A stretch of DNA of 20,439 nucleotides from IMG/VR virus record IMGVR_UViG_3300010300_000161, positions 1 to 20,439 of that record. One strand, written 5' to 3'. The position numbers and the translations under genes were made by a program. Below, in pieces: positions 1,938-20,439 of the stretch; within the stretch, counting starts at the first letter, position 1, and the number at the start of each line of letters is the position of its first letter. The notes beneath the pieces are model-generated. The model was not told where the DNA came from and did no database searches. It worked only from the letters and a program-made list of their open reading frames with translations. Origin of the DNA: a virus.

Positions 1938-3134
1938 ATGGCAACACTTCGCGACAGATTCAACGCGCTTTTTCGTTACCGCGTAGGCAAATACGACAGC
2001 CAAGCAATTCCAAATGAACTGGGGATTTACGGCCACACGATTAGCGGCGCGAACGTAAACGAAGCGACGGCCCTTACGATAAGCACGGTTTACGCTTGCA
2101 CGTACAAAATCGCAAGTACGCTTGCCAGCTTGAACTTAGATATTTACGAGCGCAACGGCCGAAACATTGACGTTGCCAACGTGCATCCAGCGTTCGACGT
2201 TATCAAATACAAGCCGAACGAATACCAAACGGCGTTTGAATTTTGGGAAACCATTATTAGCCACGCCGTGTTAAACGGCTGCGGTTACGCGCTGATTGAA
2301 CGCGACGCACGCGGCTACGCAACGCAGCTTATTTGCTTGGACTATTACGACGTCGACCGCAAGTTCGTCAACGGCCAGCCCGTGTTTAGCGTTAAAAACG
2401 TCGGCATGGTGCAGCCCGAAAACATGCTCGAAATCTGCAACCTTCAACGCAAAAGCCCGATCCGTTTGCACCGTGAAAACCTCGGATTAGCGAAAAGCGC
2501 GGAAGAGTTCGGCGCGGAATACTTCGGTAGCGGCGGGCAAATGACCGGCATACTATCCAGCGACCAGCCTTTGAAAAAGGAACAAATGGATATTATCCAA
2601 CAAAGCTGGAACAAGGCGCAGAACCAAGCCGGCACGAAGCTTTTGCCGTTCGGGTTCAAGTATTCGCGTATTTCCATTAGCCCCGACGAAGCGCAATTCA
2701 TCGAAACGCGCAAGTTTCAGGCCGAAGAGATTTGCCGCATTTTCAGCGTGCCGCCAGCCTTGGTGCAACTAGAATCGCAAACGACGTACAACAACGTCGA
2801 GCAACAAAATTTGCAGTTTGCACGCCATACGGTTACGCCATGGGCCAAGCGCATCGAACAAGAAATTGACCGAAAGTTATTGCAGGCACGCGAGCGGCCG
2901 GAGCTGTACAGCAAGTTCAATTTGAACGATCTGTACCGGGGCGACATGCAAAGCCGTGCGGCGTTCTATACTCAGATGCTCCAAAACGGCGTGTTGAACA
3001 TTAACGAAGTGCGGCAAAAAGAGGATATGAACCCGACCGAGGGCGGCGATACGCACGTAGTTCAGGTTAACCAAATTGCCCTTGACAGGCTCGGCGCGTA
3101 CTCGGATAAACTCAGCACGGATGGCGTTCAATGA
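1938..3134 (+). CDS. HK97-family portal protein
   Basis: A 398-residue protein in the canonical place after the large terminase. Portal proteins form the dodecameric ring at the head vertex through which DNA passes and to which the neck attaches. Recognisable family features are the N-terminal LRDRFNALF start, the AL.ISTVYACTYKIASTLASLNL helix region (about residues 45-69), the HPAFDVIKYKPNEYQTAFEFWE segment, and the middle portion with FETR/EICRIFSVPPALV (about 255-275), which is highly characteristic of HK97 portals. The C-terminus carries GVLNINEVRQKEDMNPTEGGD, the usual ending. Length is typical. The next frame starts at 3121 inside this gene, an overlap of 14 nt. Confidence 0.95.
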   Translation: MATLRDRFNALFRYRVGKYDSQAIPNELGIYGHTISGANVNEATALTISTVYACTYKIASTLASLNLDIYERNGRNIDVANVHPAFDVIKYKPNEYQTAFEFWETIISHAVLNGCGYALIERDARGYATQLICLDYYDVDRKFVNGQPVFSVKNVGMVQPENMLEICNLQRKSPIRLHRENLGLAKSAEEFGAEYFGSGGQMTGILSSDQPLKKEQMDIIQQSWNKAQNQAGTKLLPFGFKYSRISISPDEAQFIETRKFQAEEICRIFSVPPALVQLESQTTYNNVEQQNLQFARHTVTPWAKRIEQEIDRKLLQARERPELYSKFNLNDLYRGDMQSRAAFYTQMLQNGVLNINEVRQKEDMNPTEGGDTHVVQVNQIALDRLGAYSDKLSTDGVQ

Positions 3135-5340
3135 TTACCCCGAAAGCGCGGTAAATAACGCCAAACGCGCCCTAAAATGGGCCGATGAAAACGGCTGGGG
3201 CAGTTGCGGAACGCCGGTAGGTAAGCAGCGAGCCAACCAAATCGCCAGCCGGGAAAAGCTATCTTTGGACACAGTAAAGCGCGTTTACAGCTTTTTGAGC
3301 CGTCACGCACAAAACGCGGACGTACCTTACGACGAAGGGTGCGGCGGTTTAATGTATGACGCATGGGGCGGTAAATCTATGCTGCCTTGGGCGCGCAAAA
3401 CAATTAATAAAATGGAAGAAAAGAACAACAACCACGAAGCCGAATTGCGGGCGCAGTATGGCGACGACGTGGAATTAAGAACCGCCGAAGTGCGGGCCGC
3501 CGGCGACGATTCGTTAATCGTGGAAGGCTACGCCAGCAACTTCGAAGTAGAGTACGATCTAGGGTATTTCAAAGAATCCGTAGCGCGCGGCGCGTTCGAC
3601 GACGTGTTAGGCGACGACGTGCGGTTCTTGCTGAACCATACCGGCGCGCCCTTGGCACGAACTACCAACGGTACTTTGGAATTGACAGTCGACGAAACCG
3701 GTTTACGATACCGTGCGGCACTGGCCGACACGCAGGACGGGCGCGACCTTTACAAGCTGATCAAGCGAGGCGATATTACCCAAAGTTCGTTTGCGTTTAC
3801 GATTGACGCGGACGAATGGAGCGAAGACCGTAGCACGCGGACAATTACCAAAATCGGCCGTTTGTTGGATACGTCAGCGGTGACGTACCCAGCAAGCCCC
3901 AGTACGACAGTAGCAGCGCGAAATATGGCAGCGGCGGCGCAGGAAGCGGAGGAACTGAATGACGAACAGGAAGCAGCAGAACCGGCAACGGAAGAACGCG
4001 CAGAACCTGAAACCATAAAAACCGAAGCGCGTAACTTTACGCCAACAACTAAGAACAATTTTTCAAATATGACTCTTAACGATTTAAAGGGCCAGCGATC
4101 CGCATACTACGAAGAGTTCGTAGGTATCGGACAGAAGGCCGACAGCGAAGGCCGTTCATTGACTGAGGCCGAACAAGAACGATGCGACAAGCTCGACAAC
4201 ATGGTAGCCGACTTGGACGTAAAAATTAAGCACAAGCAGCGCGAACAGGAAATGGTTGCACGCATGGCGCAAAGCGGCACGGCATCGAATGCTGAGCAGC
4301 GCGAAGTTGAGCGCGTACACGGCGCATTCTCTTTGTCGCGTGCAGTTGCACAAGTAGCCAACGGCCGCAACTTGGAAGGCGCGGAAGCTGAATGGGCGCA
4401 GGAAGCCGCAAAGGAAGCGCGTTCGCAGGGGTTGCAGCTCGCAGGACAAATTGCAATTCCTTCAATGGCTTTGCGTGCTTTGGGCGACGCTGACGAACAC
4501 AGCGCGACCACAGGTTCGGGCGCAGGCTTTGTACCTGAAGTTGTACCGGCAGCAATCGAGGCGCTGCGCGCACCTACCGTTGTTGAAGGTTTGGGCGCTA
4601 CGGTAATTCGTAACGCAGTCGGAAATTTGCAGTTTCCACGCGTAAGCACGAAGGCGACAGGAACGGGCGAAGGCGAAGCCGATGCAAACGCCGATTCCGG
4701 TTTGTTGCTCGACGAAGTGTCAATGACACCGGAGCGCGTCAGCGCGAAGACGACGTACACCAAGCAATTGATTTTGCAAGGTGGTGCGGCAGTCGATTCG
4801 TTGATTGCAAACGACCTCACAGCAGCAATGAATGCATTCATTGACGACCGCGCGTTCGATGTCATTCTCGCCGATTCTGATGTTGCAGACAAGTCGAATG
4901 CAACAGCAGGCGAAGCTATCGTAGGCGATGCAGAAATTGCAGCTATGGCCGTACAGATGGAAAGCAGCGTATTGGCAGCGGGCGGCAACTTGGCCGGCGC
5001 AACGTACGTTATGTCGCCACTTGCATACGAGTTGACCAAGCACGCAGTTGGCGTTACAGGCGTTAAAGCTTTGTTCGAAAACGGCGAGTTCAACGGATTC
5101 CCAGCAATTGCAACACCTTACTTGGTGAACGCATCTGCAACTTTGGGGCAGGTTGTATTCGGTAACTTCGCGCAGGGCCTTATCTTGGCTTACTTCGGTG
5201 GTCTCGACTTGTTGGTTGATCCATACAGCGCAGCAGGCAACGCGCAAGTCACCTTGCACGCCAACCGTTTCTTCGACGTTGCAGTACGTCAGCCGGGCGC
5301 GCTCGCTATGGCGAAGGACGTTGCAGCAGCAGACGAGTAA
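3121..5340 (+). CDS. Prohead protease - scaffold - major capsid fusion protein
   Basis: One uninterrupted 739-residue frame joins three functions. Residues about 1-98 form a conserved head-associated domain (YPESAVNNAKRALKW, SCGTPVGKQRANQIA, EGCGGLMYDAWGG) that I recognise from phage head proteins but cannot name. Residues about 120-280 are an S78 (HK97 gp4-like) prohead protease with its catalytic His in FLLNHTG (H173) and Ser in QSSFAF (S223). An acidic Ala/Glu-rich linker follows. From residue 317 there is a charged coiled coil like the HK97 delta scaffold, then the HK97-fold capsid. The ATG at 3121 is preferred to the ATG at 3076, which lies deeper in the portal gene. HK97 itself encodes protease and capsid separately. 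An internal ATG at 4069 may give the capsid on its own, and a strong terminator follows the gene. Confidence 0.9.
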   Translation: MAFNDYPESAVNNAKRALKWADENGWGSCGTPVGKQRANQIASREKLSLDTVKRVYSFLSRHAQNADVPYDEGCGGLMYDAWGGKSMLPWARKTINKMEEKNNNHEAELRAQYGDDVELRTAEVRAAGDDSLIVEGYASNFEVEYDLGYFKESVARGAFDDVLGDDVRFLLNHTGAPLARTTNGTLELTVDETGLRYRAALADTQDGRDLYKLIKRGDITQSSFAFTIDADEWSEDRSTRTITKIGRLLDTSAVTYPASPSTTVAARNMAAAAQEAEELNDEQEAAEPATEERAEPETIKTEARNFTPTTKNNFSNMTLNDLKGQRSAYYEEFVGIGQKADSEGRSLTEAEQERCDKLDNMVADLDVKIKHKQREQEMVARMAQSGTASNAEQREVERVHGAFSLSRAVAQVANGRNLEGAEAEWAQEAAKEARSQGLQLAGQIAIPSMALRALGDADEHSATTGSGAGFVPEVVPAAIEALRAPTVVEGLGATVIRNAVGNLQFPRVSTKATGTGEGEADANADSGLLLDEVSMTPERVSAKTTYTKQLILQGGAAVDSLIANDLTAAMNAFIDDRAFDVILADSDVADKSNATAGEAIVGDAEIAAMAVQMESSVLAAGGNLAGATYVMSPLAYELTKHAVGVTGVKALFENGEFNGFPAIATPYLVNASATLGQVVFGNFAQGLILAYFGGLDLLVDPYSAAGNAQVTLHANRFFDVAVRQPGALAMAKDVAAADE
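4069..5340 (+). CDS. Major capsid protein from a probable internal start
   Basis: The ATG at 4069 lies in frame inside the fusion gene. It sits exactly where a separate capsid gene would begin: MTLNDLKGQRSAYYEEF is a standard start for an HK97-type coat protein with an N-terminal delta coiled coil. The 20 nt before it are A+T-rich (AACAATTTTTCAAAT), the favoured initiation context in Bacteroidota, in a region that is otherwise rich in G and C. Codon choice changes near here: Ala moves from mostly GCG/GCC towards GCA and Leu towards TTG, as in a strongly expressed gene. The product would be 423 residues, close to HK97 gp5 plus a few extra. Capsids need hundreds of copies per head and the protease far fewer, so a second start makes sense. 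This is inference from sequence context. Confidence 0.55.
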   Translation: MTLNDLKGQRSAYYEEFVGIGQKADSEGRSLTEAEQERCDKLDNMVADLDVKIKHKQREQEMVARMAQSGTASNAEQREVERVHGAFSLSRAVAQVANGRNLEGAEAEWAQEAAKEARSQGLQLAGQIAIPSMALRALGDADEHSATTGSGAGFVPEVVPAAIEALRAPTVVEGLGATVIRNAVGNLQFPRVSTKATGTGEGEADANADSGLLLDEVSMTPERVSAKTTYTKQLILQGGAAVDSLIANDLTAAMNAFIDDRAFDVILADSDVADKSNATAGEAIVGDAEIAAMAVQMESSVLAAGGNLAGATYVMSPLAYELTKHAVGVTGVKALFENGEFNGFPAIATPYLVNASATLGQVVFGNFAQGLILAYFGGLDLLVDPYSAAGNAQVTLHANRFFDVAVRQPGALAMAKDVAAADE

Positions 5341-16876: not shown

Positions 16877-17244
16877 GCGCAATTGACGAACTGAAAGCGT
16901 TATCGGACAAATACGATATGCGCGCCGATCACTTCCACAAAGACCAACGCGGCTTTGTGATTATGACCCGCCGAGGCGTTGAACACGTACAAGCCAAAAT
17001 AAAGGCCGTGGTGCGCTTCGAAATAGTGCCGGAATGGTCTGACCCCTCAGAGGGGAGATATTGCATTAAAGCGCACGCAAAATGCGAAATTGGGCAGGTA
17101 GAAACGTATGGCGAGGTAAGCAAAGGCAACAACCGGAATGCGTACCCGATTGCGATGGCCGAAAAGCGGGCGTTGTCCAGGGCGGTTTTGAAGCTTGCCG
17201 GCTTTTACCAACATAACGTTTACGGCGAAGACGAGGTAGAATGA
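16873..17244 (+). CDS. Possible recombination / single-strand annealing protein
   Basis: A 123-residue protein placed before a DNA methyltransferase and upstream of an SSB-like gene. The C-terminal half reads AKCEIGQVETYGEVSKGNN, then AYPIAMAEKRALSRAVLKLAGF. The 'tyGE....n....yp..maeKRAl.Ravlkl.g.y' pattern is a recurring one in phage DNA-metabolism proteins and resembles the core of Erf/Sak/Rad52-like annealing proteins, which also contain a conserved 'xxAxT.A.kRAl..af' type helix. The assignment is tentative. It overlaps the previous gene by 4 nt and the methyltransferase by 4 nt (ATGA at 17241). Confidence 0.45.
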   Translation: MSAIDELKALSDKYDMRADHFHKDQRGFVIMTRRGVEHVQAKIKAVVRFEIVPEWSDPSEGRYCIKAHAKCEIGQVETYGEVSKGNNRNAYPIAMAEKRALSRAVLKLAGFYQHNVYGEDEVE

Positions 17245-18248
17245 AACACGGAAGCCTATTTTCCGGAATCGGAGGCTTTGACCTCGCCGCCGAATGGATG
17301 GGATGGGAGAACCTGTTCAATTGCGAGTGGGAAGAGTTCCCGCGCAAAGTTCTAAAGCACCACTTTCCAAACGCCAAACAATATGGAAACATCAAAGAAT
17401 TTAACGCGGCAACTTACGCTGGACGAATTGACATACTTACAGGAGGATTCCCCTGCCAACCTTACAGCACCGCAGGAAAACGAAAAGGAAAGGAAGACGA
17501 ACGCCATTTGTGGCCGGAGATGCTTAGAGTTATTCGAGAGTGTTCGCCCCGTTGGATCGTGGGAGAGAACGTTCGCGGGCTTGTTAATTGGAACGGAGGG
17601 CTGGTTTTCGAGGAGGTGTGCGCTGACTTGGAAGCTTGTGGGTACTCCGTACAACCGTTTATTCTTCCAGCTTGCGCCGTCAACGCTCCCCACCGCCGCG
17701 ACCGAGTTTGGTTTGTTGCTCACGCCAACGACAAGGAAAGAAGTAATGGATACGGAGAAATTCAAGGCACGAATGGAGAAGTACGACAACGGAACGACTG
17801 TCCCGAATTTAGCGACACAAATTCACGGAATGCTCCCGACACCAAACACAATGGACAGCCTTCCACCGAAGGAGGGCAAAGCGATGGAACGAATAGCCAA
17901 CGGAGCGAGAAAGGGCAGGAAGTCCCCGAGCAATTTGAGGGAGTACGTAAATCCCAAAAGTTGGGAAGCGTATATGCTCCCGACACCGGTAGCGAGCGAC
18001 CATCAGAATCGATGGCCGACAGAAAATTGGAAGGGCGACAGCGACCTGCCGAGCGTGGTGAACGGAGAACTTGGGACGCGTTCCCAACTGTCCCCCCTGT
18101 TTGTGGAGGAGATGATGGGCTTCCCAAAAAACTGGACGGTATCACCTTTCCAAAGTGGAGAAGAGAATCAATCAAAGCCTACGGAAACGCAATAGTACCA
18201 CAGATAGCATTGCAAATATTTAAAGCAATTGAAGCCTATGAATCTTGA
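17241..18248 (+). CDS. dcm: C5-cytosine DNA methyltransferase
   Basis: A 335-residue enzyme that methylates cytosine in DNA with S-adenosylmethionine. Motif I is LFSGIGGFDLA (residues 6-16), motif IV GGFPCQPYS with the catalytic Cys72, motif VI ENVRGL (109-114), motif VIII HRRDRVWFV (151-159), and motif X SIKAYGNAIVPQIA near the C-terminus. Between about 163 and 285, where a target recognition domain should be, the protein is unusually polar and low in hydrophobic residues (many N, D, S, G, E, R). That stretch coincides with a second, conserved-looking frame. The gene may protect phage DNA against host restriction. It uses GGA, AGA and CGA codons more than its neighbours. It overlaps both neighbours. 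Confidence 0.95.
   Translation: MKHGSLFSGIGGFDLAAEWMGWENLFNCEWEEFPRKVLKHHFPNAKQYGNIKEFNAATYAGRIDILTGGFPCQPYSTAGKRKGKEDERHLWPEMLRVIRECSPRWIVGENVRGLVNWNGGLVFEEVCADLEACGYSVQPFILPACAVNAPHRRDRVWFVAHANDKERSNGYGEIQGTNGEVRQRNDCPEFSDTNSRNAPDTKHNGQPSTEGGQSDGTNSQRSEKGQEVPEQFEGVRKSQKLGSVYAPDTGSERPSESMADRKLEGRQRPAERGERRTWDAFPTVPPVCGGDDGLPKKLDGITFPKWRRESIKAYGNAIVPQIALQIFKAIEAYES
17383..18195 (+). CDS. Second protein encoded in the +1 frame inside the methyltransferase gene
   Basis: A 270-residue frame lies entirely within the methyltransferase gene, shifted by +1, with an ATG in an A-rich context (AAACAATATGG). Its translation does not look random. It has TYLQEDSPANLTAPQE and CGRRCLELFE near the N-terminus, WFSRRCALTWKLVGTPYNR in the middle, then LLLTPT (about 111), MLPTPNTMD (150) and MLPTPVASD (198), and a final SQLSPLFVEEMMGFPKNWT (233-252). 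From memory, proteins of this pattern exist in other phages, often next to or annotated as cytosine methylases, and the last block resembles the 'mGFP..WT' block of such enzymes. Function is unknown; a partner or modulator of the methyltransferase is a guess. I cannot search databases here. Confidence 0.65.
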   Translation: METSKNLTRQLTLDELTYLQEDSPANLTAPQENEKERKTNAICGRRCLELFESVRPVGSWERTFAGLLIGTEGWFSRRCALTWKLVGTPYNRLFFQLAPSTLPTAATEFGLLLTPTTRKEVMDTEKFKARMEKYDNGTTVPNLATQIHGMLPTPNTMDSLPPKEGKAMERIANGARKGRKSPSNLREYVNPKSWEAYMLPTPVASDHQNRWPTENWKGDSDLPSVVNGELGTRSQLSPLFVEEMMGFPKNWTVSPFQSGEENQSKPTETQ

Positions 18249-18938: not shown

Positions 18939-19292
18939 ATGGAATTAATAATTGAAGGCGTGGTACGCCGAATCAACCAGCCGCAAGAATTTGCAAGCGG
19001 CTTTCGCAAATGCGAAGTTCACGTAGAAGTGCCCGACGGCGAATACAAGGATATTTTTCCGGTCGAGTTCATTAAAGACATGGCCGACGAAGCCGGTACG
19101 CTGACGCCCGGAATGCAAGTAAAGATGCGTTGCAACGTGCGCGGCCGCGAATGGGACGGCGGTGAAAAAGGCTGGCGCGCCTTTATTAGCTTGACCGTAT
19201 GGAAGTACGAGATACTGACCGAAACGAAAGAGATGAAGCAACAAGCGGCGGCAATCGAAAAACTGGCAAAAGACGATGGATTCCCGTTCTAA
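18939..19292 (+). CDS. SSB-like OB-fold protein (DUF3127 type, probable)
   Basis: A 117-residue protein that looks like a single-stranded-DNA-binding protein of the DUF3127 type: LIIEGVVRRINQPQEFASGF, then a strand KCEVHVEVPDGEYKDIFPVEF, a GMQVKMRCNVRGREWDGGEKGW block, and an IS(L)TVWKYEI strand. The C-terminus ends KDDGFPF, an acidic tip with a final Phe like the one by which bacterial SSBs recruit partners. It probably covers single-stranded DNA during phage replication. It follows the previous gene by one base and overlaps the next small gene by 17 nt. Confidence 0.8.
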   Translation: MELIIEGVVRRINQPQEFASGFRKCEVHVEVPDGEYKDIFPVEFIKDMADEAGTLTPGMQVKMRCNVRGREWDGGEKGWRAFISLTVWKYEILTETKEMKQQAAAIEKLAKDDGFPF

Positions 19293-19937: not shown

Positions 19938-20439
19938 ATCGCAAGTACGTGAGCATACCAATCGACATTTGGAATCTTGGCGAGCTGCACCCCAACGAAC
20001 GGGTGCTGCTGGCCGAGGTTCTGAACTTCGAAGCGCAGGGCAAAGAATGCTTTGCGAGCAACGCGCATTTTGCCGATCTGCTGAACGTATCAGAAGCGAC
20101 CGCACGCGGATACATTTCCAAGCTTTGCAACGCCGGTTTTTTGATCCGCGAAGGCGACAGGTACAACAGGCGACTGCGTAAATCTGCGCAAACGAGTGCG
20201 CAAATCCGCGCAGACGAGTGCGCAAATCCACGCAAACGAGCGCGTAAATCTACGCAAACGAGTGCGCAGAATTCAGCACATAATAAAACATATAATAAAA
20301 CAGAGAATAAAACACTTAATAAAAGCGCGCAGGCGCGCGAGGTTGTTTTACCCTTCCAAACCGACACCTTCGAAAGTGCATGGAACGAATGGAAGGAATA
20401 CAAGCGCACCGATCACCGATTCAAATACAAAACCGCCCA
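19934..20439 (+). CDS. Replication initiator, winged-helix, cut by the window edge
   Basis: The first 168 codons of a longer gene. The N-terminal part is a winged-helix DNA-binding domain: VSIPIDIWNLGELHPNERV, then SNAHFADLLNVSEATARGYISKL and CNAGFLIREGDRYNRR. This is the type used by phage replication initiators and DnaD/O-like proteins. The middle (about residues 82-132) is a low-complexity region encoded by two kinds of tandem repeat. After it comes FESAWNEWKEYKRTDHRFKYK, a helical start of a C-terminal domain typical of such proteins. As in lambda O, the origin of replication may lie inside this gene. The stop codon is not in the window. Confidence 0.8.
   Translation, partial: MNRKYVSIPIDIWNLGELHPNERVLLAEVLNFEAQGKECFASNAHFADLLNVSEATARGYISKLCNAGFLIREGDRYNRRLRKSAQTSAQIRADECANPRKRARKSTQTSAQNSAHNKTYNKTENKTLNKSAQAREVVLPFQTDTFESAWNEWKEYKRTDHRFKYKTA
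20176..20263 (+). repeat. Four 22-bp tandem iteron-like repeats
   Basis: Four direct repeats of exactly 22 bp: 20176-20197, 20198-20219, 20220-20241 and 20242-20263, plus a 5-bp start of a fifth. Each unit begins GCGYAAATCY and ends RACGAGY; only a few positions vary. Because 22 is not a multiple of 3, each unit is read in a different frame, so conservation is of DNA rather than of protein. This is expected for binding sites of an initiator protein. Confidence 0.9.
20282..20325 (+). repeat. Four 12-bp A+T-rich tandem repeats, possible DNA unwinding element
   Basis: Units of AATAAAAC plus four variable bases start at 20282, 20294, 20306 and 20318; the last ends AATAAAAG. They follow the iterons after 18 bp. 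In protein they read as NKT repeats. A block of short A+T-rich direct repeats next to iterons is the classic layout of an origin where strands first open. Confidence 0.8.

Follow-up and report, generated by a model that had tools for sequence, protein, structure and literature searches.

Within a viral DNA of 20,439 nucleotides (IMG/VR record IMGVR_UViG_3300010300_000161; the whole stretch is called the window here), a C5-cytosine methyltransferase gene at positions 17241-18248 contains a second long open reading frame. This frame, at +1 relative to the methyltransferase, runs from an ATG through 270 codons and a stop (17383-18195) and lies wholly inside the larger gene. Is a protein encoded there and, if it is, what could it contribute to a DNA-modification enzyme? 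A sequence-only reading of the window had proposed true dual coding over more than 800 bp, and had guessed that the inner product was either a specificity or a regulatory partner of the methyltransferase. Here the products of the outer and inner frames are called alpha and beta, respectively, and their features are collected in Table 1.

Table 1. Features of the methyltransferase gene and of the frame nested in it (window positions).
Feature	Positions	Strand	Basis
Alpha, predicted catalytic chain of a C5-cytosine methyltransferase, 335 aa	17241..18248	+	PF00145, TIGR00675, phrog_363, AlphaFold2, Foldseek
Alpha motif I (SLFSGIGGFDLA)	17253..17288	+	Family alignments, alignment to M.HhaI
Alpha motif IV (GGFPCQPYS, catalytic Cys72)	17442..17468	+	PCQP invariant in family alignments; aligned to M.HhaI
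Alpha motif VI (GENVR)	17562..17576	+	ENV invariant in family alignments; aligned to M.HhaI
Alpha motif VIII (HRRDRVW)	17691..17711	+	Family alignments, alignment to M.HhaI
Alpha residues 163-285, polar variable linker; putative target-recognition region in the beta frame	17727..18095	+	Alignment, pLDDT, substitution pattern
Alpha motif X (KAYGNAIVPQIA)	18174..18209	+	G315, N316, A317 and P320 invariant in family alignment
Beta, putative second subunit, 270 aa plus stop, nested in alpha in the +1 frame	17383..18195	+	phrog_1008, conservation
Beta ATG start codon	17383..17385	+	Kept ATG, Tyr48 codon bias
Beta N-terminal domain (CGRRCLELFE ... ALTWKLVGTPYNRLFFQLAPS)	17500..17712	+	Conserved residues, predicted beta hairpin
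Beta putative recognition repeat 1 (LLLTP), from beta residue 111	17713..17727	+	Family alignment
Beta putative recognition repeat 2 (MLPTP, then NTMD), from beta residue 150; copy 1 of the 14-nt repeat	17830..17844	+	Alignment, repeat scan
Beta putative recognition repeat 3 (MLPTP, then VASD), from beta residue 198; copy 2 of the 14-nt repeat	17974..17988	+	Alignment, repeat scan
Beta predicted motif IX (SQLSPLFVEEMMGFPKNWT)	18082..18138	+	hhalign against one-chain methyltransferases; conservation

Some other features of the window deserve mention. At 3076-5340 a single 754-aa ORF combines a prohead protease (PF04586) with a major capsid protein (PF05065), and a long antisense ORF of 328 aa (4107-5093, minus strand), probably a by-product of codon bias, crosses the capsid part. 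A DUF3127 protein is encoded close to the methyltransferase, at 18939-19292. Five iteron-like 22-bp tandem repeats of the CAAACGAGTGCGCAAATCCGCG type (20167-20276) are followed by 12-bp AT-rich repeats at 20270-20317, possibly a replication origin.

Openness of, and selection on, the inner frame

The +1 ORF in the methyltransferase gene is a conserved protein, and its frame is open far above chance. When the codons of the window's methyltransferase were shuffled synonymously, the +1 frame was open in 0.1% of trials and contained a mean of 5 stops. The reciprocal shuffle, in which synonymous codons of the inner frame were exchanged, left the outer frame open in 0 of 5000 trials. Relatives have nearly no stops in their inner frame: 65 distinct genes contained 4 stops at +1 where synonymous shuffling predicted 305, and their +2 control frame was ordinary (941 stops observed, 1037 expected). 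Because these loci had been found with the inner protein, the test was repeated on loci retrieved with an alignment of the methyltransferase only. All 80 of the 80 loci of this beta-blind scan carried the inner protein at +1 according to a profile search, and the 78 distinct genes together contained 1 in-frame +1 stop where synonymous shuffling predicted 339.

The pattern of substitution also separates the two frames. Changes between close pairs (85-98.5% DNA identity) were counted by alpha codon position. In the N-terminus, outside the overlap, 15, 5 and 81% of them fell at positions 1, 2 and 3; the corresponding shares were 37, 13 and 51% in the overlapped motifs II-VIII and 48, 21 and 32% in the variable region. 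Position 3 exceeded position 1 in all 28 informative pairs outside the overlap, and position 1 exceeded position 3 in 23 of the 29 informative within the variable region. Alpha position 1 is the wobble position of beta, so the inner frame is more constrained than alpha in the variable region; elsewhere in the overlap both frames are constrained. Synonymous variation of the methyltransferase is not normal either, since alpha third-position variation in the close pairs drops from 0.21 to 0.12 per site within the overlap (nominal p = 4.5e-12; kinship among the loci makes this and the other nominal p-value optimistic).

The beta start codon itself is under selection. Of 136 distinct alphas, 135 have a +1 ATG near the beta start, where 95 would be expected. 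Where the codon after Tyr48 begins with G, so that TAT creates an ATG, the ratio of TAT to TAC is 60:6 (nominal p = 1.4e-6), and TAT accounts for 41% of alpha Tyr codons overall. The proposal of dual coding over more than 800 bp is supported: both frames are under selection, and it is from this selection that we infer translation of the inner one.

Division of the methyltransferase motifs between the frames

The alpha ORF matches PF00145 of Pfam (5e-47), TIGR00675 of NCBIfam and phrog_363 of PHROG. According to the family alignment and the model it contains motifs I-VIII and X, which were correctly described as intact and are conserved among relatives, and it has no motif IX. All of the AdoMet-binding and catalytic motifs expected of a PF00145-type enzyme (I, IV, VI, VIII and X) are present. 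Conserved alpha columns are nearly absent from residues 163-285, the stretch that had been read as a linker where a folded domain would be expected. AlphaFold2 agrees with that description: its alpha model is confident for most of residues 1-162 and 303-335, comprising the catalytic domain and the motif-X helices, and is disordered over residues 168-291, with pLDDT below 50 over nearly the whole stretch. In Foldseek, the match of this model to M.HhaI is confined to about 165 columns of the catalytic domain. Given this disorder and this restricted match, alpha appears to be devoid of a folded target-recognition domain as well as of motif IX.

Beta belongs to a PHROG distinct from that of alpha, phrog_1008 (2.3e-22, residues 12-257), and, as the sequence-only reading had stated, related alternative-frame products occur in other phages, the inner frame having homologues of its own. 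Near-invariant residues of its N-terminal domain in the beta family alignment are G44, C47, W74, S76, LTWK81-84 and R92, and a beta hairpin is predicted by AlphaFold2 at residues 80-100. The three LLxTP/MLPTP blocks noticed in the sequence-only reading are confirmed (beta residues 111, 150 and 198), with D after the second and third, and the exact DNA repeat reported there is 14 nt long (ATGCTCCCGACACC), its copies starting at 17830 and 17974. Relatives carry 0 to 5 LPTP-type units per beta, and the count follows beta length (r = 0.75), as would be expected of a modular recognition region from which no specificity is predictable.

The most conserved part of beta in the family alignment is the block assigned to motif IX. 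Comparison of the beta family with seven one-chain methyltransferases by hhalign aligned a single block, placing beta 233-253 opposite motif IX (RRLTPRECARLQGFPDNF). This match alone is modest (E = 0.0034, probability 9.5%), and the stronger link is provided by the mycobacteriophage enzyme described below. Beta ends at 18195 and has no motif X, which sits in the alpha frame. Neither Pfam nor NCBIfam gave a credible family for beta or for 93 members of its family, the matches being weak and unrelated, and no match for beta was found in the PDB by sequence. Modelled alone with AlphaFold2, beta gave a low-confidence structure (pLDDT 59) for which Foldseek returned no fold match. A fold that depends on the partner chain would explain this poor model.

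Fused, split and overlapped relatives

The C-terminal half of beta is homologous to the recognition and motif-IX part of a one-chain methyltransferase. The gp66 protein of Mycobacterium phage DillTech15 (L172:1257-2600) contains, in one frame, the catalytic motifs, four LLPTP..D repeats, FPEWMMGWPAGW and motif X. The beta family aligned by hhalign to gp66 residues 222-410 (E = 4e-10), and the segment opposite the C-terminal half of beta sits between motifs VIII and X. This order and this alignment suggest that the LPTP..D repeats take the place of the target-recognition domain and that MGFP..W corresponds to motif IX. In addition, phrog_1008 matches gp66 in frame (residues 247-446) and, within this gene, a second ORF at +1 (L172:1609-1914; 7e-17), meaning that in DillTech15 the two halves of beta lie in two frames. 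Such a distribution suggests that an indel in an overlapped ancestor gave rise to the fused form. One-chain actinophage methylases of this kind share with the window's pair the catalytic motifs, the LPTP..D repeats and a motif IX (MMGWP). They differ in that the alpha frame of gp66 encodes the recognition part and motif IX, part of the beta N-terminal domain being left at +1.

The actinophage-type loci inspected (L270-L299, n = 30) comprise 27 with one frame and three (L286, L296 and L297) with the recognition part in another frame. Most one-frame actinophage methylases retain a +1 ORF with the beta N-terminal domain, often ending 9 nt before the in-frame LPTP. Other arrangements were observed as well. 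In Streptomyces phage Darolandstone (L185 1471-2340) the recognition repeats are in the +1 frame, but it is the alpha frame that encodes motifs IX and X. On a Bacteroides finegoldii plasmid (L189 1362-2478) alpha ends after motif VIII and the beta frame is still open, a locus annotated as a methyltransferase fragment and a hypothetical protein.

Among two-polypeptide C5-methyltransferases, M.EcoHK31I is the closest in description. The gene for its small chain presumably lies inside that for the large chain, in another frame; we take this chain to be about 176 aa long, compared to 270 aa for beta, and M.EaeI to be an enzyme of the same kind. As presented in the part of PMC3404938 that cites Lee (1995), the large chain of M.EcoHK31I carries motifs I-VIII and X and a separate small chain carries motif IX, the target-recognition domain being placed in the large subunit. 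The window's pair is similar to this enzyme (which recognizes YGGCCR) in having a large chain with motifs I-VIII and X but not IX, and motif IX on the small chain. It differs in that the published recognition domain is in the large chain, whereas here the corresponding alpha region is predicted to be disordered and the repeats are in beta. Going by the published description, we would call the pair a variant that may work like M.EcoHK31I. What is different here is the apparent location of the recognition region in beta, the wide conservation in phages and the alternation with fused forms. The split enzyme M.AquI likewise has catalytic and recognition parts on two polypeptides, but its small subunit holds motifs IX and X, whereas motif X here stays with alpha, which sets the pair apart from the M.AquI type. 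Genes 6 and 5 of Mycobacterium phage Krili, which overlap by 209 nt, are AquI-like.

The overlapped form is widespread. Beta is conserved at the same +1 offset in 83 phage and phage-contig loci, and nearly all of 56 bacterial-genome loci, mostly from Bacteroidota and found with the inner-protein alignment, show the same relation. The phages concerned infect Bacteroides, Paenibacillus, Lacticaseibacillus, Synechococcus, Microcystis, Microbacterium, Stenotrophomonas and Salmonella, and the inner frame is also present in an Acinetobacter phage. The two ORFs of the Salmonella phage overlap almost completely (L179:1197-1931 and 1201-1944), and a relative of this gene occurs in 4 of 5426 E. coli genomes. 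In the bacterial loci and in the beta-blind scan, beta was always accompanied by alpha or by remains of alpha. In Sphingobacterium and Porphyromonas genomes a few copies of the pair (L134, L135 and L136) look broken. Both ORFs are annotated in Paenibacillus phage Leyra (gp61 and gp62) and in Krili (gp6 and gp5), and a table in PMC6070908 lists the two Leyra ORFs as methyltransferases. Some phages thus already have both ORFs annotated in this way, and phrog_1008, the family of beta, is itself labelled 'DNA methyltransferase'. Our literature search found no paper describing the pair as overlapping subunits in phages.

A probable two-subunit enzyme and its alternatives

It is highly probable that a C5-cytosine methyltransferase of two polypeptides has both of its subunits encoded in this one segment. 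Alpha would perform AdoMet binding and provide the catalytic cysteine. Beta, translated from its own internal ATG, would supply the target-recognition repeats and motif IX that are absent from alpha. The two chains would then assemble into one enzyme methylating DNA at a sequence set by beta. Methylation would probably shield the phage DNA from host restriction, since no restriction gene was identified nearby among the window genes examined. A scan for promoters and terminators gave nothing above chance. Regarding the two functions guessed earlier for the inner product, the presence in beta of the repeats and of motif IX, and their absence from alpha, favors a specificity partner; a regulatory partner is less supported.

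Overlapping frames of conserved proteins are partly conserved themselves, and the open +1 frame could be viewed as a by-product of alpha amino acids and codon bias from which no protein is made. Synonymous shuffling, however, predicted 305-339 stops where 1-4 were observed, and in the variable region alpha changes faster than the inner frame. Unless these tests share an unrecognised bias this explanation is refuted, and we give it practically no weight. It is improbable, too, that beta is not a separate protein and that ribosomes translating alpha change frame once past motif VIII, giving a long chain with motifs I-VIII, the repeats and motif IX. The order of blocks in beta would agree with a recognition domain that follows motif VIII, and one-frame relatives do exist. 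However, constraint on the +1 frame is seen well ahead of any useful slip site (the share of changes at position 3 already falls from 81% to 51% in motifs II-VIII), and this frame has a conserved N-terminal domain and a kept ATG of its own; moreover, the shifted product would be without motif X.

A somewhat smaller chance still is left to beta being translated and selected, but as a regulator or an unrelated phage protein, for instance one for counter-defence, that overlaps alpha by happenstance. The missing Pfam and NCBIfam match and the model of beta alone, with no clear fold, would be compatible with such a protein. Yet the C-terminal half of beta aligns to the part of a one-chain methyltransferase that separates motif VIII from motif X, alpha is without that region, and each beta in the bacterial loci and the beta-blind scan was accompanied by alpha or its remains. 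All three alternatives were rejected on the grounds given here.

Beyond the two-subunit enzyme of this window, we consider it likely that the pair represents an ancient C5-methyltransferase lineage in phages of many bacterial phyla. The gene for its catalytic subunit would enclose, in a different frame, the entire gene for its recognition subunit, and small indels would convert overlapped two-chain forms into fused one-chain forms, or the reverse, among close relatives.

Long dual coding on the same strand is seldom seen, and most cases are young or difficult to prove. In this family, about 800 bp are selected in both frames in very distant hosts, and both products are apparently parts of one enzyme. 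If the reading as an ancient lineage is true, few dual-coding gene pairs of tailed phages would be longer or more widely conserved. The overlapped, split and fused versions are natural controls for studying how overprinting arose and what it costs. The inner gene is usually missed or mislabelled by gene finders, and Pfam and NCBIfam do not match it. Many phage methyltransferases may therefore lack their specificity subunit in current annotation, in which case assays of alpha by itself would fail.
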